A DNA stretch of 22,244 bases from a virus. The position numbers were made by a program, and so were the translations under genes. Each line of letters starts with the position of its first letter. Within the stretch, counting starts at the first letter, position 1. The notes beneath the pieces are model-generated. The model had not been told where the DNA came from. It saw only the letters and a list, made by a program, of their open reading frames with translations, and searched no databases. The DNA is taken from positions 32,981 to 55,224 of the IMG/VR virus record IMGVR_UViG_3300014819_000010; one strand, 5' to 3'. This document shows positions 1 through 20,681 of the stretch, in pieces.

Positions 1-624
1 AACAACATTAAAGATGTTCAGGATATCTTGTTGCGGAATTTTAATAAAAATTCCTCAGTTGTTTCAAAAGATGAAAACTGTGTAAGAATCAAATGTTATT
101 CTAGAGGAATTTTAAATTGGTTTAAGAACCATTTATATGATGCCGCTGAAAACAAATGTTATCCATGGGATTTGGATCGCATTTCAAAAAATGACTGTAT
201 AAATCTTCTTACCGGTCTAATAAGATCAGATGGTACATGGAATGAAAATGTATTTTCATTTTCAAATACAAATACTCATCTTATCTGGTTAGCAAAACAA
301 TTGTGCGCTAGATTAGGCTTGGCTGCTTCTATACATTATCGAGAACCAAGAATCGGTGGTACAATTGATATTCGTACAATTGTTGGCAAAAAACAAGAAT
401 GGACCATATCGGTTGGTGCAAAACTAGGTTCACTTTCTGTTAAAGATTACATAGAAAATGTAAATTGTGAAAATAGTAAATTTATTGAAAAAATGTACAT
501 TGATAATAATTTTATTTGTACTCATGTTCAAAAAATTGAACATGAAGAATATTCTGGAATTGTATATGATCTACAGGTAGAAGAAGATCATTCATTTACT
601 GGACCATTTTTAACAATACATAAT
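1..624 (+). other. Intein C-terminal part with LAGLIDADG endonuclease motif
   Basis: The splice junction is visible: the intein ends FLTIHN and the next residue is Cys (codon 625-627). That is the canonical penultimate His, terminal Asn and +1 Cys. Upstream, VYDLQVEEDHSFTG matches intein block F. At 208-234 the peptide LTGLIRSDG is a good LAGLIDADG copy that keeps the catalytic-position Asp before the final Gly, so this is probably the second motif of a DOD homing endonuclease. The N-terminal splicing blocks and first LAGLIDADG motif lie outside the window. Insertion inside an ATP-binding loop is typical, because inteins favour conserved active sites where imprecise loss is lethal. Nothing visible suggests inactivation. 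Confidence 0.93.
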
Positions 625-1089
625 TGCGGCGCAGGTATGGTTAACGTCTGCGTAATGCTTAACGGTGAGCCTGTATTGACGTTCTCTACTACAAAGAGCG
701 GTGATTGGATTGATCGTATGGCAGCAGTTGCTACCGGTCAAACTGACAGCATTGTGCAGGCTGAAAAGGAAGAGGGTGATTTCACCATCGGTCAACCTCA
801 TGATAATCAAATTCTTGCTGCGGTTTCAGCTTATTACGAACGTCTTATTGATTACACCACTAAGCAACTTGCCGCTGCTCTCTCTGACCACAAGGATCTT
901 CCAAAGTTTAAGGATCCTTTACCGGTTGTAATAGGTGGAGGTACCTCGCAAGCAAAAGGATTTGTAACTACATTTGCAAAAAAACTCGAAGCCAATGGTT
1001 TCCCTGTTGCGGTTAAAGAAGTAAGACATGCTTCAGAACCTCTTCATGCCGTCGCTAGAGGGTGTCTTATCGCTGCCTCTATATTGTGA
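1..1089 (+). CDS. Actin/Hsp70-fold ATPase, intein-interrupted, 5' truncated by window
   Basis: The frame is open from base 1, so the gene begins outside the window and only the 3' part is visible. Codons up to 624 are intein. The C-extein (625-1086, 154 residues) starts CGAGMVNVCVML, which fits the phosphate-2 loop of the actin/MreB/ParM/Hsp70 superfamily (consensus DxGxGxxxV; the Asp would be the last N-extein residue). It is followed by GDWIDRM, like the GD..D stretch of MreB-type proteins, and later PVVIGGGTSQAKGF, which fits the adenosine motif. The family binds ATP and polymerises or acts as a chaperone. A phage filament used in DNA positioning or segregation is possible, but the subfamily cannot be set without the N-terminus. 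The stop is followed by a small membrane ORF 10 bases on. The superfamily call is fairly secure; the role is inference. Confidence 0.85.
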   Translation, partial: NNIKDVQDILLRNFNKNSSVVSKDENCVRIKCYSRGILNWFKNHLYDAAENKCYPWDLDRISKNDCINLLTGLIRSDGTWNENVFSFSNTNTHLIWLAKQLCARLGLAASIHYREPRIGGTIDIRTIVGKKQEWTISVGAKLGSLSVKDYIENVNCENSKFIEKMYIDNNFICTHVQKIEHEEYSGIVYDLQVEEDHSFTGPFLTIHNCGAGMVNVCVMLNGEPVLTFSTTKSGDWIDRMAAVATGQTDSIVQAEKEEGDFTIGQPHDNQILAAVSAYYERLIDYTTKQLAAALSDHKDLPKFKDPLPVVIGGGTSQAKGFVTTFAKKLEANGFPVAVKEVRHASEPLHAVARGCLIAASIL

Positions 1090-8049: not shown

Positions 8050-9531
8050 ATGACCATCAAAAAAACAAATCTCCAAAAATTATTAGAAGCTATGATGATG
8101 AATAACGCCGGTCCTAACTTCTATGGCAATCCATCATTTGGTGGCACTGGCAATTATGGTATGGGTGGATATACTCAACTAGCTCATTTTGGTCTTAATC
8201 CTGCTACAGAAGCTATGGCAGAACAAGAACAAGAAGAACTTGAACAAAACATAGAAGATCAAGAGTGGATTAATAACAAATATCGTAGGGGATTTGGGTT
8301 TAATGCAGATGAAGATCCGATACCACATTGGAATGGTAGAAATGGAACGGTAGAAACTGTTGCTGAAAGTGCTCCATATGACAATTCAGTTTCTCGTATG
8401 AGAGATTTACCTGGATTTCCTGCTCCTAATACTCTCGTAGAGCCAAAACAATATACACCATTGAATGCGGGAGCAGATTACGAAAATCCAATTGATGGTC
8501 GAAAAGTAGAATATTTGGGTCCAACAATCAATGGAGTCGCCATGGATGATAATACCGGTAATTCTTCAGCTATGGCATTACAACTGTCTGAAAAAGAAGA
8601 GTTAATTGGCAAAAGAATTAAAAAACTTAAAAAGCCGATTACAAAAAAGTTGGACAAGCTTATTGGACCAGATCCAGATATATCATCAGCCACAGAACAT
8701 GAAACAGATACAAAAGATTTAATTTTATATGATTATATCAAAACGCTAGTTTCTGAATATCTTGAAGAAATATTAGGTGCGCCAAAAGCTACAACCCCAG
8801 ATCGTGTTGGTTGGAATAATACCAGAACAAATTCATTAGCTGCTTGGAGAAATCATATTAATCCAGAAGAACCACCAACCGAAACATGGCGTCCACAGTT
8901 TGGAGAAAATCCAGAACAAAATCCTCCAATGATATATGATCCTCCACAAAGAAGTCCATTAGGCGGATTTGGTTCAATCGGTTGGCCAAAACAATTTGTT
9001 CCAGCAGACTATGAAGCTACTCATGGTGGTGAAGAAGGTTTTGGTGAAGATTTATTAGGCGCAAGAAGATTAAGACAATCTCCTACAGATGATGATCGTG
9101 TTGGAGTTAATGCAAGTATAAGAGAGGCACGTATGAAACAATTAGAAGCCCTATTAGAATATCTTTTAAGTGAAGAAGCTTGTGATGAAGATATGGAAGA
9201 GAAGTTTGCTTCACAAGCACAACGACGTTTCTTCTATGCAAAAGCCGGAGAGGGCGGCAAAGAAGGAAAAAAATGGAAGCGTATGGCTCGTGAGTTTGAA
9301 CAAGAAACACCAAAAGGTGAAAAACTTCCGAAAAAAGTAAATGAAGCTTTAATTGAGGAAGTTTTAGAAGAGGGAGAGAATGAACCTACAAATAAAGCTC
9401 TATGGTCCAGGGCTCAAGCTTGGGCAAGATCAAAATATGATGTTCATCCCAGCGCCTATAGTAATTCCGCTGCGGCTAAATGGTATAAGAGTAAAGGTGG
9501 AGGCTGGCGTAAGAAAGGTAAGAAAAAATGA
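8050..9531 (+). CDS. Modular putative virion protein (493 aa)
   Basis: An in-frame stop just upstream fixes the start at or after the ATG at 8050, although AGGAG is about 18 bases away, too far for ordinary use. The product opens with an amphipathic MTIKKTNLQKLLEAMM, then a Gly/Asn-rich region, a long low-complexity Pro/Asn middle and two compact basic modules near the end. The first, about residues 390-425, has SQAQRRFFYAKAG and ETPKGEKLPKKV. The second, about 445-490, has LWSRAQAWARSKYD, HPSAYSN and AKWYKSKGGGW. I recall such modules in many unrelated phage proteins, without a known function. The next gene overlaps by ATGA, suggesting joint production. Virion location is inference. Confidence 0.88.
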   Translation: MTIKKTNLQKLLEAMMMNNAGPNFYGNPSFGGTGNYGMGGYTQLAHFGLNPATEAMAEQEQEELEQNIEDQEWINNKYRRGFGFNADEDPIPHWNGRNGTVETVAESAPYDNSVSRMRDLPGFPAPNTLVEPKQYTPLNAGADYENPIDGRKVEYLGPTINGVAMDDNTGNSSAMALQLSEKEELIGKRIKKLKKPITKKLDKLIGPDPDISSATEHETDTKDLILYDYIKTLVSEYLEEILGAPKATTPDRVGWNNTRTNSLAAWRNHINPEEPPTETWRPQFGENPEQNPPMIYDPPQRSPLGGFGSIGWPKQFVPADYEATHGGEEGFGEDLLGARRLRQSPTDDDRVGVNASIREARMKQLEALLEYLLSEEACDEDMEEKFASQAQRRFFYAKAGEGGKEGKKWKRMAREFEQETPKGEKLPKKVNEALIEEVLEEGENEPTNKALWSRAQAWARSKYDVHPSAYSNSAAAKWYKSKGGGWRKKGKKK

Positions 9532-10721
9532 ACGAAGACTTACGCAAATGGTTTAAAGAAAAGTGGAAGGATATTAGCCGTAAAGATAAAAGCGGTAAAC
9601 ATCCCCCATGTGGCGCTTCTGCTGATAAAGGTGTAAGAGCAAAGGATAGCTCACGTAAATATCCAAAATGTGTTCCAGCAAACAAGGCTAAAAATATGAG
9701 CAAAAAAGAAAAACAAAGTGCGGTAAGAAGAAAGCGCCGTGCTCCAAATGAGCCAGGTTCTCCAGATAACGTTAAAACTGATGTTAAAAAAGAAAACTGG
9801 GAAAAATGGCATCCTTCTAAAAAGGAAGTTTATCCAGAGGGAATTCCAAGTAACAATGCACCAGAAAATGAAAAACCTATGGGTGGCGCCGTTGCTTTCG
9901 AAAAAAATCGAAAAGAAGTGTTAAGTCACTTACAAGAAGTCATTAATGATATCGTCGAGTCTATTTTGCTTGAAACTACTGTAGCTCCTCGTAGGAGACA
10001 AAAGGTTGCAGCTTCTCAAACGCCATCGAATATCGATATCAATGCATTAAAATCTATACTCGATAAGGAAACACGAGATAACAATGATATTAATAATATA
10101 ATCGATTATATGCGAGGTAAAGATATTAATGCATTTAGTTCGGACTTTAAGAGTTTGTCAGATAAACAAATAGCCACGTTAGAAACTGTTATTGTTCAAA
10201 ATGTAAATCCGGAGTCTAAAATATATCCGGAATTATATAATAAAATTGAGTTTGCTATAGGTCAAAAACATTTAGCTAAATTAGCTGTTCAGGAAGTTCC
10301 TACAACTAAAGGATCACCAGCGCAAAAAAAACAAACATCAAAAGACGTGACAAAAACTGTTGAAATACTAAAATCTGAAGAAGTTAGAAAAGCAATTGAG
10401 GAATTGATGAGAAAGATGAAAGCTGCTGGATATTCTTCGATGGACATGTCAAAAAGACTAGCTGACTTGGGAGATTTTATTAACACAGATTTTGGTCCGG
10501 GAGCGGCTGCTTCACAAATTCGTGGTATTAATTTGGCAAATCTTGGAGCTCCACAAATATCACCAGCAGAAAAAAACATATTTGGAAAAGTTAAAAGTTT
10601 TTTTGGTTTAAATGAAAACGAAACAAAACAATTAATGGAAAAATATGAAATACATACAGAAAAAGATTTAGATATCTTGATAGAAGCGGTAGCTCAACTA
10701 GTTCTAAAGGAAGGTAAATGA
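9528..10721 (+). CDS. Putative virion protein with Cys-containing basic N-terminal module (397 aa)
   Basis: The start overlaps the previous stop (ATGA). Residues 1-75 form a strongly basic module: LRKWFKEKWKDISRK, HPPCGAS, KYPKCVPANKA and SAVRRKRRAP. It is a recurrent but functionally unknown phage module with two conserved Cys, possibly nucleic-acid-binding. An amphipathic helix follows (VLSHLQEVINDIVESILLE), then a long helical body with a Gln/Lys linker, KSEEVRKAIEELMRKMKAAG, and an acidic end (ILIEAVAQLVLKEG). No catalytic motif is visible. Shared features with the preceding protein suggest that both go into the same particle or assembly intermediate. Confidence 0.88.
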   Translation: MNEDLRKWFKEKWKDISRKDKSGKHPPCGASADKGVRAKDSSRKYPKCVPANKAKNMSKKEKQSAVRRKRRAPNEPGSPDNVKTDVKKENWEKWHPSKKEVYPEGIPSNNAPENEKPMGGAVAFEKNRKEVLSHLQEVINDIVESILLETTVAPRRRQKVAASQTPSNIDINALKSILDKETRDNNDINNIIDYMRGKDINAFSSDFKSLSDKQIATLETVIVQNVNPESKIYPELYNKIEFAIGQKHLAKLAVQEVPTTKGSPAQKKQTSKDVTKTVEILKSEEVRKAIEELMRKMKAAGYSSMDMSKRLADLGDFINTDFGPGAAASQIRGINLANLGAPQISPAEKNIFGKVKSFFGLNENETKQLMEKYEIHTEKDLDILIEAVAQLVLKEGK

Positions 10722-13315: not shown

Positions 13316-13624
13316 TCATCGTCTGCGAAGGGGTTGAACTTTTTGTTTCGCTTTCCAGAGATAACTAGCACAGGTTGCTGGTACTATGAATTCAATTTCT
13401 GGTTTTTCAGTTAAAGAAAAAATCCAAGCTTTATCTTCGCCTCGTGGGCCACCTTCAATGTCCCTAAGATACTGAATAAACGTACCATTTTCAATTCGTG
13501 TAACAGCATGGGAGGATCCTACTACCGGCATACAAGGCAAATAACGTACACCGGGAATATCATGCACGTTAACTTGACGTTGTTCCTTCCAGTAAAAGAT
13601 CGGCAATTCTGTTTGTTTAGCCAT
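13316..13624 (-). CDS. Hypothetical protein (102 aa)
   Basis: The ATG is directly downstream of a near-consensus promoter with only five bases between -10 box and start, and no Shine-Dalgarno is present, so a leaderless message is predicted. The product looks beta-rich (LPIFYWKEQRQVNV, RYLPCMPVVG, IEFIVPATCASYLW) and ends in a basic KAKQKVQPLRRR tail. No family is recognised. It forms its own unit with a promoter and a terminator. Confidence 0.85.
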   Translation of the reverse strand: MAKQTELPIFYWKEQRQVNVHDIPGVRYLPCMPVVGSSHAVTRIENGTFIQYLRDIEGGPRGEDKAWIFSLTEKPEIEFIVPATCASYLWKAKQKVQPLRRR

Positions 13625-13629
13625 AATTT

Positions 13630-13658
13630 ATTATAACACGTTATAACAATAATATCAA
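13630..13658 (-). promoter_or_regulatory. Near-consensus sigma70 promoter producing a leaderless mRNA
   Basis: On the minus strand TTGATA (13653-13658), a 17-base spacer and TATAAT (13630-13635) stand five bases before the ATG at 13624. The expected start site is the A of ATG. It is the best promoter in the window and lies in a 38-base gap. Confidence 0.82.
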
Positions 13659-13662
13659 GAGA

Positions 13663-14136
13663 TTAAGCTGTTGGTGGAGTGGCAGGAGCAGCCGGTGCTG
13701 GAGGCATAGCTGGTTGAGCGGCAGGAGTGGCGGGCGGGACTGCGGAAGCTTCTGGAGCGGCTTCTTGTTCATTGACATTAATAACGATTTTACCGATTTC
13801 AACGAGAAACGTTTCGATTGCTTGTTTTTGTTCATCGGTTTGTTTTTTGAAGAATGTTACGAGTTGACCATAGACTTCTGGGTCTGTAAATGATCTACCG
13901 CCACGAATAACATTAAGACGTTCAATCATGTCATCAACGGTAAATTCTTTTGGTTGTTCTTCTGGTGCTGATGGTGCAGATACATCAGCAGGAGGAGTCA
14001 TTGGTGCGGGCATACCTGCTGGAGCGGCTGGCGCTTCTTGTTCAGAAAGCAATTGTACAATTGCTTCGTTGATTAAATCATGAAGATATTTTTTTCTACG
14101 AGTTTCGTTTAATTCTTGACGAATTGATGTTGACAT
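13663..14136 (-). CDS. Putative virion protein with Pro/Ala-rich linkers (157 aa)
   Basis: CGAGGT precedes the ATG. The first 32 residues form an amphipathic helix (RRKKYLHDLINEAIVQLLSE) followed by an Ala/Pro-rich linker. A compact helical domain follows at about 65-120 (FTVDDMIERLNVIRGG, VYGQLVTFFKK, IETFLVEIGKIV), and a second long Ala/Pro tail ends the protein. The arrangement of helix, linker, small domain and linker resembles those encoded at 18810-20681. No catalytic residue pattern is visible. Virion association is inference. Confidence 0.88.
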   Translation of the reverse strand: MSTSIRQELNETRRKKYLHDLINEAIVQLLSEQEAPAAPAGMPAPMTPPADVSAPSAPEEQPKEFTVDDMIERLNVIRGGRSFTDPEVYGQLVTFFKKQTDEQKQAIETFLVEIGKIVINVNEQEAAPEASAVPPATPAAQPAMPPAPAAPATPPTA

Positions 14137-14793: not shown

Positions 14794-15110
14794 TTTATTT
14801 CTATTTTCGAAAATATTTCTTCAATATTTAAGACTATTTTATAACATTCTTTAATATGTTGTTTACCATTTTCAGATTGAACTTTGCATGTAACATATGC
14901 AAAGTCTTCATCTTGTTTTTCTTCTAGAAAGATAAAGATATCATGACCATGTTTCATATTCAGTATATCAACAGTTAGATATCCATATTCTTCGGCCAAT
15001 ATTTTTATTGGCCGTCTAAAAACAAAAAGAACCGGACCTACCGCACGGGTAGACCAGTTCTCTGGAAATAATTTATATAGTGGATGATTTAGTAATTCTG
15101 GATCTGGCAT
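14790..15110 (-). CDS. Hypothetical protein (106 aa)
   Basis: A TTG two codons earlier is open, but the ATG at 15110 lies two bases after the upstream stop and is the better start. The product begins MPDPELLNHPLYKLFP and continues with strands (VGPVLFVFRRPIKI, YLTVDILNM, DIFIFLEEK, FAYVTCKVQ) and a final helix (CYKIVLNIEEIFSKI). It is likely a small alpha/beta fold. No family is recognised. Tight spacing with both neighbours indicates one operon with the sigma-like gene upstream. Confidence 0.82.
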   Translation of the reverse strand: MPDPELLNHPLYKLFPENWSTRAVGPVLFVFRRPIKILAEEYGYLTVDILNMKHGHDIFIFLEEKQDEDFAYVTCKVQSENGKQHIKECYKIVLNIEEIFSKIEIK

Positions 15111-15112
15111 AA

Positions 15113-15886
15113 TCAATTCTCATTCTTCCTAGGACGCCCACGCTTCTTACTTGGGTAAAGATGCTTGCTCAACATCGTTTGAAAACTCTTCATTCGATTA
15201 TTCTGCTTAAGGATATCTCCACGAAGATATGCAGAAATTTCTGTTGCATCTTGCTTCATGAGGAACTTAATCATTTCAAGTTCGCCTGTGGTCTTGATAT
15301 CATGCATTTCCAGTGGAGTAATCTGATATGCCTTCTGGATCGCATCTAGAAACATATTAATGTTATTACAGGAGATTAGAAGAGTCGCATATGCATCAGC
15401 GACAACTTGATGAGCGGCGCTAATACGATCCATGGCAGCATCCATGCCATCACGATGGCGACCGGTCATAAGCTGCATCTTGGCAGTTCCAGACGTTTCA
15501 AGCTTAAGTGCCATCATGGCAGTAATACCATGAAGTTCTTGTCCAATCTCTTTAAGAGATACATCGCCGGTATTATAGATTGCTTCCTTCTTGCCCTTTA
15601 CGGGCTTTGTTGGGCTTTCAAAATCGATCTGAGCGAAATCACTCTTAAGGGACTTCTTGATAGCCCAATCATCACATACGTCCGCAGGAGAAAGCGGGAA
15701 ACCACTACGGGGATCGGAAATATATGCCAAAACATTTTCAACAGAAACATTCGGATTATACCATGCGGTATTCTTTCGATTATCGTTGAAATAATAACTC
15801 ATAATCCACTCGCAAAGCTTCGTACGATCTCGAAGGCGAGCGAAAAGAGGATTGACATTATCCGGATTAATCTTCATGTTATTCAT
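15113..15886 (-). CDS. Sigma-region-4-like HTH protein with AT-hook
   Basis: A TTG is open one codon further out, but GGAG six bases before the ATG at 15886 favours that start (257 aa). Residues 108-135 read DVSLKEIGQELHGITAMMAL, which matches the helix-turn-helix of sigma70 region 4 (consensus LxEIGxxLxGIT, contacting the -35 box). The C-terminus, KKRGRPRKN, is an AT-hook that binds the DNA minor groove. No clear region 2 is visible; the N-terminal third (LCEWIMSYYFN) is unfamiliar. It could be a divergent phage sigma or a late-transcription adapter. A strong-looking promoter precedes it. The operon continues with three unknown or virion-like genes. Confidence 0.82.
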   Translation of the reverse strand: MNNMKINPDNVNPLFARLRDRTKLCEWIMSYYFNDNRKNTAWYNPNVSVENVLAYISDPRSGFPLSPADVCDDWAIKKSLKSDFAQIDFESPTKPVKGKKEAIYNTGDVSLKEIGQELHGITAMMALKLETSGTAKMQLMTGRHRDGMDAAMDRISAAHQVVADAYATLLISCNNINMFLDAIQKAYQITPLEMHDIKTTGELEMIKFLMKQDATEISAYLRGDILKQNNRMKSFQTMLSKHLYPSKKRGRPRKNEN

Positions 15887-15917
15887 CAATGACTCCAGGG
15901 TGACAACAATTAATATT

Positions 15918-15968: not shown

Positions 15969-16853
15969 TCAGAAGAATTTGCGTACAAGAGAAGGTCTAC
16001 CGGCAGTTTCTTTTGCTCTTAATGCATCTGTGAAGCGAGCAATAACTGGAAGTTGTGAGCCACGAAGATATAATCTAATAAGTTCTGCTGCTGCTTCTTC
16101 TTCTGCACCTTCTTCAGCCATAGCTTGAAGGTCAACTAATAGTTCAATATCACGTTCTGTTGCTCTTGGCATTTTAAGAACGTCCATTACGAAATCTTCA
16201 ACGCCTTTTTCTGCAAGACGTTCAATAAACTGTTTAGCTGCTGGAACTGCCAAAGCTTTTAGACTTTCTTTTGATTCAAGACCTCCTCTAGATACGGCGG
16301 CTTTCTTAAAACGTTCCATAGCTTTCTTTTCTAGTTCTGCGGCTCTTTGTACAGATACACCAAGTTCTTTAGCAATATCTTCAAGAGATGCTCCACCTGT
16401 CATTCCTTTTGTTTGATATTTCTTACCAGTCTCTTCTTCCTCTACATCAGCTTCTTCTTTTTCTGATGGAGTTTCTTCACTACCAAGAGCTGCTTTTGTT
16501 GCACCAGTATTATTAATAAGATCCTTAAGCTTATTTGGAGTCATGGCAGAATAACCAAGAATTGATTTTCCATTAAGTCCATCAACATAAAATTTATCTA
16601 GAATAGTCTTTAAATCTTCTCTTGAAGTACGACCTTGAAGCATATTAAGATAACGTTTTTGATCTGGAGATATATCGCCTTCAGTTTGACGAGCTAACAT
16701 TTTAAGTACCGCTTCTGCATTCCTTAAATTTGTTGCAGAAATAAGAGCAGCAGCTTGTTCACGACGCTGGCTGCTACGTCCTTGTTGTGCTTTAATTTCT
16801 TCATTTGCAGCCTCTGCAATTAAACTTTTTAATTTTTTCATTGTTATTTTCAT
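15969..16853 (-). CDS. MKIT-type putative virion protein with sigma-like HTH (294 aa)
   Basis: The frame is open from a TTG at 16859, but the ATG at 16853, two bases after the upstream stop, gives the N-terminus MKITMKKLKSLIAEA, an amphipathic helix start that recurs in putative phage virion proteins. An Arg/Ala-rich helical region (about 25-110) and an acidic linker (125-142) follow. Residues 155-185 (ASLEDIAKELGVSVQRAAEL, then EKKAMERFKK) closely resemble sigma70 region 4. The C-terminal helices (FIERLAEKGVEDFV, ELLVDLQAMAEEGA) end in a basic tail (GRPSLVRKFF). No region 2 is seen. The combination suggests a packaged DNA-binding or transcription factor, but either half could mislead. Confidence 0.85.
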   Translation of the reverse strand: MKITMKKLKSLIAEAANEEIKAQQGRSSQRREQAAALISATNLRNAEAVLKMLARQTEGDISPDQKRYLNMLQGRTSREDLKTILDKFYVDGLNGKSILGYSAMTPNKLKDLINNTGATKAALGSEETPSEKEEADVEEEETGKKYQTKGMTGGASLEDIAKELGVSVQRAAELEKKAMERFKKAAVSRGGLESKESLKALAVPAAKQFIERLAEKGVEDFVMDVLKMPRATERDIELLVDLQAMAEEGAEEEAAAELIRLYLRGSQLPVIARFTDALRAKETAGRPSLVRKFF

Positions 16854-16855
16854 GA

Positions 16856-17131
16856 TCAATCTTCAGCTTTCTCTTCAGATGATGGGGGAGGAATTGATGG
16901 GGTACCCGAAGTATTGCCTTTTTCAGCCCATCTACGGCCAAAGTACAAAACCGTCAGTGGTGTTAGATAACTCATTGCTTCTGTGCCGGAAAATTCTCTT
17001 ATTTTCAATCCAAAAGCTTCTTCTACAATCGAAACAAGAAGCCATAAAGTTACCACAGCATATCCTATTACCATCATAGTAAATGAAGCAGATTTTTTTC
17101 CATCACTTTGTTTTAAAAGAGGTACTTGCAT
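16856..17131 (-). CDS. Small membrane protein, holin candidate (91 aa)
   Basis: AAAGGAT precedes the ATG. One clear membrane helix spans residues about 17-38 (FTMMVIGYAVVTLWLLVSIV) and a shorter hydrophobic segment at about 53-65 (AMSYLTPLTVLYFG) leads into RRWAEKG. The C-terminal tail is hydrophilic with Pro/Ser/Glu. Size, two hydrophobic segments and position next to the spanin-like genes suit a holin, which would permeabilise the inner membrane to start lysis. No endolysin is in the window, and other small membrane roles are possible. Confidence 0.8.
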   Translation of the reverse strand: MQVPLLKQSDGKKSASFTMMVIGYAVVTLWLLVSIVEEAFGLKIREFSGTEAMSYLTPLTVLYFGRRWAEKGNTSGTPSIPPPSSEEKAED

Positions 17132-18512: not shown

Positions 18513-18806
18513 TCATTTCTTAGATAATTCGTGAGCTATCATGCGATATAAAGTTTCAGCATCAACGTGTTCTTCTTTGCCCTCCAATATTCTTTGTTTT
18601 TTATATTCAGTAGCTTCTTGTAATATTTCTACCAATCTTTGATCATTAATCGATATTTGTTGAATGACATAACCCATAAATTGATGAGCAGTTAAACCAT
18701 GACGAAATAAGACCTTTTTTAAATTTAGCATTTCTTCCTGAGTAAATTGCAATTCTAATGCTTCTTTCGGAAGAATCTTTTTTGGTCGTCCTGGTCCACG
18801 TTTCAT
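18513..18806 (-). CDS. AT-hook protein (97 aa)
   Basis: The N-terminus MKRGPGRPKK is an AT-hook (GRP core), which binds the minor groove of AT-rich DNA. The remaining 80 residues are helical (QEEMLNLKKVLFRHGLTAHQ, EILQEATEYKKQRI, ETLYRMIAHELSKK) and include LTAHQFMGYVIQ, which resembles a ribbon-helix-helix or small HTH dimer unit. The ribosome site GGAGGAG lies inside the Gly-rich coding end of the upstream virion-like gene. Probable DNA-binding or regulatory protein; it might also coat DNA. Confidence 0.82.
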   Translation of the reverse strand: MKRGPGRPKKILPKEALELQFTQEEMLNLKKVLFRHGLTAHQFMGYVIQQISINDQRLVEILQEATEYKKQRILEGKEEHVDAETLYRMIAHELSKK

Positions 18807-19688: not shown

Positions 19689-20681
19689 TCATCCTCTAGA
19701 TTGGACGCCAGGTGCTTGTGTTGCTGGAGCGGCGGGCGCCGATGGTGAAAGTGGAGTTGTTGCTTGATTACCTAAACCGGTTGTTAATGGTTTTTGTGCC
19801 GGAGGTTGTATTTGCGTAATTGGAACTGTTTCTGCTCTCTCAGCAGCAGAAAGCATTGAATCTGGTTTTGGATTATTCATAGGTTCAATTTTATATATCA
19901 AATCTAGATTACATTTTTCACATACCATCATACGAGCTTCAATAACATCCCAATTTAATTCTTTCATCATCGAAAAAAGATAAGCTTTTTTATCTGTCAT
20001 ATAATCTTTAAAATAAGCATGTTCCCACATGTCCATAACAATAACCGGTATACAGCCAACAGGAATGTTAGTGTCATGACTATCAATTGATACGTTCATA
20101 AAAACATTACGATAGGGTTCCCATACAGTTAATCCCCAACCATTACGAGAAGCCATACATGCTGCCATGAAATCTTCTTGCCAAGCTTCAAATGTACCCC
20201 AATCTCTTGATAGTCTCATGTATGGTAAACTATCAACTCGAATCTCACTATCGACATCTGAAATATTTGCGAAATATAATTCATGAAGTTTTACTCCATT
20301 GAAATTATATGTCTCATCTACTTTAAGAGAGCGATATGAACTGGCACTGCTTTTAACTTCATTTTTGTCCGCTGCAACAAGACCACTTGCAACTTTATTA
20401 AATGCTTCTACATATCCCTTATAAAGTTTATCATGAGAACTTTTTGTTCCATCAGATAATTTTTCAGTTTTCATTAAATGGGACTTGGGTATAAGTGTAA
20501 ACCCTTCTTTAAGGGTATTGATCAATTTTTTTGCCGCATTTGACAATATTGTAACCGGCTGTACAGCTTCTGATATTTTTTTAGGTTTCTCTGGTGCTAA
20601 TCCTTTGGCTTCAAGCGTATTCTTTACTGCTCTCTTCACTTCATCATCTAAAAGGGATTGCAATTCTTTTGTTAATTTCAT
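19689..20681 (-). CDS. Fe/Mn superoxide-dismutase-fold protein with extra termini (330 aa)
   Basis: Residues about 60-250 follow the Fe/Mn-SOD pattern. DMWEHAYFKDY (217-227) is the family signature with ligands Asp217 and His221; GTFEAWQEDF (162-171), GWGLTVW (181-187) and INW-like ELNWDV (241-246) also fit; KLHELYFANI gives a further ligand, His133. The first helical ligand seems lost: in SSHDKLYKGYVEAFN the usual His position aligns to Ser82, with His one residue later. Extras are an MKLTKELQSLLDDEVKRAVK helix, a VCEKC pair (253-257) and a Pro/Ala-rich tail. SODs convert superoxide to peroxide and oxygen; here a non-enzymatic or virion-bound role is equally likely. The neighbouring genes are virion-like. 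Confidence 0.88.
   Translation of the reverse strand: MKLTKELQSLLDDEVKRAVKNTLEAKGLAPEKPKKISEAVQPVTILSNAAKKLINTLKEGFTLIPKSHLMKTEKLSDGTKSSHDKLYKGYVEAFNKVASGLVAADKNEVKSSASSYRSLKVDETYNFNGVKLHELYFANISDVDSEIRVDSLPYMRLSRDWGTFEAWQEDFMAACMASRNGWGLTVWEPYRNVFMNVSIDSHDTNIPVGCIPVIVMDMWEHAYFKDYMTDKKAYLFSMMKELNWDVIEARMMVCEKCNLDLIYKIEPMNNPKPDSMLSAAERAETVPITQIQPPAQKPLTTGLGNQATTPLSPSAPAAPATQAPGVQSRG

Follow-up and report, generated by a model that had tools for sequence, protein, structure and literature searches.

The internal proteins (Ips) of phage T4 are described as injected proteins that share no homology beyond their leader and are encoded at a genomic hotspot (PMC9026906; PMC12373910). IpII and IpIII start with MKTYQEFIAEA, and IpI starts with MKTFKEF. 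The first ten residues of IPIII are reported to suffice for packaging into the T4 head, also of foreign proteins fused to them (PMC9026906), and the internal-protein leaders are reported to be trimmed by gp21 (PMC9026906; PMC12373910). According to the same literature, Ip1, Ip2 and Ip3 are inhibitors of type IV restriction enzymes (PMC12373910), and the T4 head also receives Alt, a protein with host RNA polymerase as its target (PMC9026906).

The stretch analyzed here (the window; 22,244 nucleotides) is the terminal part of a 55,224-base virus record. Its minus strand holds a genuine coding open reading frame (ORF) that runs from an ATG at 16853 to a stop at 15969 and encodes a protein of 294 amino acids, the target of this study; an alternative TTG start at 16859 would add two residues. 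The plus strand over 15969-16853 has many stops, and no RNA structure was found at the start codon (z 0.46). Genes were called with simple ORF scripts, not with a gene finder. The target protein begins with MKITMKKLKSLIAEAANEE and has the following features, in which ^ marks a putative cut:

15969 to 16853, minus strand: coding sequence of the 294-residue, leader-tagged protein with a plausible HTH, stop included (ORF and relatives)
16794 to 16853, minus strand: residues 1-20, MKIT-type leader MKITMKKLKSLIAEAANEEI (leader family; core conserved in relatives)
16809 to 16820, minus strand: residues 12-15, I-A-E^A; a prohead protease may cut here after E14, whose codon ends at 16812 (judged from the leader family, gp23 propeptides and T4 leaders)
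16407 to 16499, minus strand: residues 119-149, acidic linker in the expected place of sigma region 4.1 (sequence and model)
16305 to 16394, minus strand: residues 154-183, plausible HTH resembling sigma70 region 4.2 (profiles, PDB sequences, model and dN/dS)
15999 to 16268, minus strand: residues 196-285, predicted all-helical C-terminal domain (partial model, pLDDT about 70-88 over most of it)

Queries with several whole-protein peptides found homologues of the target in five IMG/VR contigs at 72-85% identity, one of them an 88-residue fragment. Gene order around the target is kept across these relatives, and the target lies within a conserved minus-strand run. With the target as query, tblastn found nothing at E <= 0.1 in 50,697 phage records; profile A1 and a profile of the HTH plus C-terminal domain (A5) recovered only loci on the same contigs and no deeper relatives, and A1 matched no PDB sequence. 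Elsewhere in the window, the N-terminal part of the product of 9528-10721 (plus strand) matches phrog_23735 (E 5e-17), and 28-1089 (plus strand) reads by eye as an intein end (HNC junction) followed by ParM/StbA-like sequence. In the same gene run as the target, 18513-18806 (minus strand) holds an AT-hook-like motif, GRPKK, again by eye.

The first-pass annotation had linked the MKIT start with particle proteins. We searched IMG/VR in two scans with the pattern M-K-I-(S/T)-xxx-L-K-x-(L/I)-I-x-E, which fixes MKI, L8, K9, L/I11, I12 and E14 and leaves residues 15 onwards unforced. Together with other loci at hand, the scans yielded at least 298 leader carriers, at least 273 of them non-redundant, with bodies from at least 214 unrelated families, in a sample that is not random and excludes proteins shorter than 40 aa. 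The leader is amphipathic and modular, and its consensus form is MKITKxQLKQ(L/I)IKEEL. Near-consensus forms occur in at least 120 stretches of viral contigs versus none in 84,980 bacterial and archaeal genomes. A 20-residue leader query found nothing in the 50,697 phage records, perhaps because of a low-complexity filter, and neither did the same search with a tagged 280-aa protein (L105). We found no published account of the leader in the open PMC literature.

All six records of the target's family carry the leader, and its core, MKI-L-K-LI-E, is kept in all six sequences; two further genes in the target's own record start with it as well. Across five contigs of the target lineage, 12 tagged genes sit in three gaps at fixed places among conserved genes; they run antisense to these and have mostly different bodies. 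The target gene itself lies outside these variable gaps. Genes in such slots include 13410-13790 and 14986-15333 (minus strand) of L007, as well as others in L027, L042, L059 and L086, an arrangement that resembles a cargo hotspot. The sequence TAATATTTAA occurs in L007 at 13841 and 15367 (minus strand), 34-51 nt before the two slot genes, and in L008 at 12158 (plus strand), 15 nt before a gene homologous to one of the head region; five other copies of this 9-mer have no nearby ORF start. From these few cases it is a possible shared promoter. The T4 late promoter TATAAATA, allowing at most one mismatch, was found upstream of 41 of 398 leaders versus 62.6 in shuffles and is not enriched; internal stretches of the same tagged genes held it in 15 of 393 cases. 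One more gene in the window, 19689-20681 (minus strand), encodes a protein whose C-terminal domain is that of an iron/manganese superoxide dismutase (Pfam E 1.1e-19). This protein starts with MKLTKELQSLLDDEV, which is similar to a truncated leader and for the most part kept in L001, L002 and L005.

Do the leaders carry a protease site? We counted [LIM]xE motifs in one protein per body family (205 families among the matches listed, proteins shorter than 60 aa excluded). The motif peaked at E18 (25 families), E21 (26) and E22 (50), against 2.4 per position at residues 31-60. Among the matches listed, G, A, S or N followed 30 of the 50 LxE22 motifs versus 43 of 196 other LxE motifs at residues 31-84. 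Many leaders hold a second motif at residues 18-22, L-x-E^(G/A/S/N), which the search did not force and which resembles the site of the T4 prohead protease gp21. E14 is probably not the cut site in most leaders, since E rather than A, G or S follows it in 207 of the 273 listed. The target is without the second site and has LIAE^A at residues 11-15, so that MKITMKKLKSLIAE^A stands beside MKTYQEFIAE^A of T4. Its relatives vary here: the window and L001 read LIAE^A, L002 and L005 read LIRE^A, and L003 and L004 read LILE^T. Judged by sequence only, the gp21-type form (L/I)-x-E^(A/G/S) fits four of these six. The gp23 propeptide region of T4-related phages (a group that we take to be the one named "Far-T4") holds LL(R/K)E in 80 of 80 loci, followed by A in 58, S in 16, T in 4 and V in 2.

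A different role for the leader would account for some of these properties. It may be a docking helix for a scaffold, a membrane or a replication structure, or one that stabilizes small accessory proteins, the tagged proteins never being packaged at all; its amphipathic and modular character fits such a role, and the L-x-E-G end could then be a plain helix cap, since L-x-E^G would be compatible with a helix end. Against a docking helix, all 80 gp23 loci show this kind of L-x-E^A/S sequence in the region of the propeptide. The position of the leader relative to gp21 was examined in two sets of loci.

In the large records of the I11 type, gp21 (Peptidase_S77) was present in 17 of 20, and relaxed leaders were present in all 20, at one to 19 copies each; the reversed pattern was found in none of them. 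In the 17 records with gp21, 108 of 109 leaders lie on the strand of gp21. Using a 16.5-kb radius that was picked post hoc, and taking records as circular for random shifts, we found 37 of 56 leaders near gp21 in the 14 records below 200 kb, against 17.0 when positions were shifted at random (this count was attained in 29 of 20,000 shifts). Over all 17 records, 42 of 109 leaders fell within 16.5 kb versus 23.6 expected, a count reached by 575 of 20,000 shifts. In two of the three records above 200 kb, and in two of the 14 below that size, every leader lies farther away than this. In the second set, gp21 was recognized by a regular expression in 25 of 83 loci, namely 80 gp23 loci plus L170, L171 and L173, the latter fetched because of their leaders. 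At these 25 loci, 5 of 74 gp21 neighbours carried a leader versus 2 of 365 other ORFs (Fisher p 0.002), and one of the two leaders away from gp21 came from L171. By a stricter count, restricted to the 80 gp23 loci, relaxed leaders occurred in only 5. One record (G006) has five MKIT-like genes within or adjoining its gp21-gp23 region.

This clustering and the five genes at the G006 head module argue against a docking helix. On its side are the tagged genes of T4-type genomes that sometimes lie far from gp21, and the large records with the target's own leader type (L11), most of which have no detected gp21: it was found in 4 of 14, and Gp23 in 5. In the window's record and in G001, G002, G004 and G005, all of which may be fragments, neither gp21 nor Gp23 was found. 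Seventeen further records, mostly small and possibly fragments too, also gave no gp21, and several of them carry MKITVKQLKQLIREQ, the leader of the target lineage. Weighing these points, we regard a docking helix as rather unlikely and conclude that the leader is probably a tag that sends proteins into the virus head. The modular leader, the protease-like motif and the clustering with gp21 in many large records lend indirect support to the proposed link between MKIT starts and particle proteins.

Three records of 242-289 kb (G036, G037 and G038, at L282, L319 and L269) hold 16-19 leaders each, many in tandem arrays, and in G036 and G038 all leaders are far from gp21. In addition, the gene after gp21 often starts with MKKxELKxxLKPLIKxCIKEVLFEEG, which is leader-like (L170, L171, L173, L187, L188 and L197), and it may encode a core protein like T4 gp67/gp68. 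Names for head-module ORFs (portal, terminase, scaffold (gp22) and core protein) were assigned by eye.

We then considered the body of the target, whose residues 155-185 had been read as sigma70 region 4. Pfam Sigma70_r4 (PF04545) matched residues 154-183 with E 4.2e-4 and 20.2 bits, below the curated cut-off of 24.1, when the whole protein was used, and the excised 41-residue piece reached the gathering score (24.5 bits, E 1.9e-5). The match covers only positions 20-49 of the 50 in the profile. Sigma region 4.1 was unmatched in Pfam; the stretch before the match is the acidic linker, and the full-length model, which is of low confidence, predicts no helix over residues 123-156. The earlier reading thus survives for the second half of region 4 (154-183), with the region 4.1 half missing and the whole-protein score below the cut-off. 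For region 2, the part of sigma70 factors that contacts core enzyme and -10 DNA, no family matched in Pfam at E <= 10, in a search whose HMMER filters drop most matches above about 0.1.

PDB chains similar in sequence were mostly sigma factors, the best being RpoH (8hkc_E, E 0.0027). In the alignment, the recognition helix of the target reads V-Q-R-A-A-E where RpoH reads A-E-R-V-R-Q, and we assume that some of these positions contact and read the -35 element. NCBIfam gave weak matches to sigma32, ECF and Tfx families. The HTH segment had the lowest dN/dS of seven stretches (0.071, against 0.156 for the whole gene; five full-length sequences). A partial model predicts a two-helix HTH with correct spacing (helices 157-164 and 168-188), which at a pLDDT of about 65 is evidence of moderate strength only. 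VIA-align placed these helices onto SigW 150-187 weakly (Z 3.6, rmsd 3.0, 38 residues); all VIA-align results had Z below 5 and neither show nor exclude the fold. The full-length predicted fold was poor (pLDDT 48.9), and Foldseek with the partial model returned nothing at E <= 0.001, for the C-terminal domain included.

Because region 4.1 is unmatched and the recognition-helix residues differ from those of RpoH, we read residues 154-183 as a plausible HTH rather than as part of a sigma factor. Membership of the sigma70 family was rejected, given that regions 2 and 4.1 are unmatched and the whole-protein score is below the Pfam cut-off. What, then, of the proposed -35-binding factor that redirects RNA polymerase? 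The same unmatched regions and the different recognition helix leave this claim unsupported. In favour of a sigma-like factor that travels in the head, binds -35 DNA and redirects the host's RNA polymerase once inside the cell, one can cite the region 4.2-like HTH, and T4, where packaged Alt is described as acting on host RNA polymerase (PMC9026906); with regions 2 and 4.1 unmatched and recognition-helix residues unlike those of RpoH, we consider it very improbable.

The HTH profile matches would suit an HTH protein that simply works inside the cell, as a regulator or in a nucleoid-like role, that is made during infection and whose N-terminal helix resembles the leader by chance or for structural reasons. 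So would the position of the gene, which lies in the conserved-order minus-strand run and not in the variable slots, and the downstream neighbour at 15113-15889 (minus strand), which ends in an AT-hook-like GRPRK (Pfam AT_hook E 0.015, below the cut-off). This reading has to set aside the leader core kept in all six family sequences and the two other genes of the same record with the same start, and we judge it quite improbable.

If the leader is a tag, what does it deliver? We ran Pfam and PHROGs on 118 sequences, comprising 117 representatives and the window protein (without its first Met), and on 68 of 157 I11-type representatives. In the 118 sequences, Pfam at E <= 0.01 matched 18 families in total, mostly by a single weak match; they include Sigma70_r4 (two members), DUF3293 (two) and HNH (one), and the second protein with Sigma70_r4 is, we infer, L003, a relative of the target. 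Among the 68 I11-type sequences, single members matched DUF6321, DUF6745, an acyl-carrier domain and a FliG C-terminal domain (E <= 0.001). Recognizable bodies of tagged proteins are thus few. One such body (L072) matches inside an 11-kb gene of Flavobacterium elemoviruses annotated as 'structural protein' with DUF3293, an annotation that hints that L072-type bodies may serve as virion components.

On balance we lean slightly towards the target being a head-packaged, protease-trimmed and injected internal protein, of core or ejection type and from an uncultivated phage, whose HTH binds DNA or a DNA-bound host target. The amphipathic leader, within the first 14-20 residues, would carry the target into the prohead core as the T4 CTS does, and the prohead protease would then cut after L-I-A-E, at residue 14. 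The mature part, made up of the acidic linker, the HTH and the helical C-terminal domain, would stay with the DNA in the head and enter the host at injection, where it would most likely bind DNA or a DNA-bound host target through the HTH. Packaging, cleavage, injection and DNA binding are each inferred here, and the target is a candidate packaged DNA-binding protein, not a sigma factor. What had been a 'sigma-like hypothetical protein' becomes a concrete claim: a protein trimmed after LIAE and held in the head with its HTH facing DNA.

More broadly, we suggest tentatively, and with somewhat less than even confidence, that uncultivated phages related to T4 may employ a roughly 20-residue leader, removed by their gp21-type protease, as an open delivery address for more than 200 unrelated families, at up to 19 copies per record, that are exchanged as injected cargo; the target would then be an HTH protein that is packaged, trimmed and bound to DNA as it enters the host. 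Should the leader indeed direct proteins to the head, a short pattern would list hundreds of uncharacterized phage proteins as probable injected effectors, which would be anti-defence or takeover proteins in uncultivated phages. Since T4 Ip1-Ip3 inhibit type IV restriction, the tagged cargo may therefore include undiscovered anti-defence proteins.

How does this arrangement compare with known systems? The closest is the capsid-targeting leader (CTS) of T4 IpI, IpII and IpIII: both leaders are short and N-terminal, start with MK, hold x-x-E^A and precede unrelated bodies. They differ in sequence (MKITKxQLKQ(L/I)IKEEL here, MKTYQEFIAEA in T4) and in the second L-x-E that is often present here at residues 18-22; the MKIT leader also stands on far more body families, at up to 19 copies per record, and is known from its sequence alone. 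It behaves like a diverged or convergent version of the T4 leader. T4 Alt, as described in PMC9026906, is a precedent for a head-packaged protein that acts on transcription; it is an ADP-ribosyltransferase, unlike the HTH target, and the likeness drawn here is one of role. In SPN3US and phiKZ, head proteins including ejection proteins are reported to have propeptides that are cut after glutamate by a gp21-like protease, with an A-x-E motif and mostly long propeptides in SPN3US (PMC5694885). The packaged transcription proteins described for these phages are RNA polymerase subunits, not HTH proteins. The sigma70 family resembles the target in the HTH half of region 4 (PF04545, positions 20-49 of 50, E 4e-4), and the target differs from it in having no region 2 or 4.1 match, a score below the cut-off and other recognition-helix residues. 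Pending proteomics, it is the leader family more than the HTH that is new, and the kind of system to which it would belong, T4 capsid targeting, is one already known.
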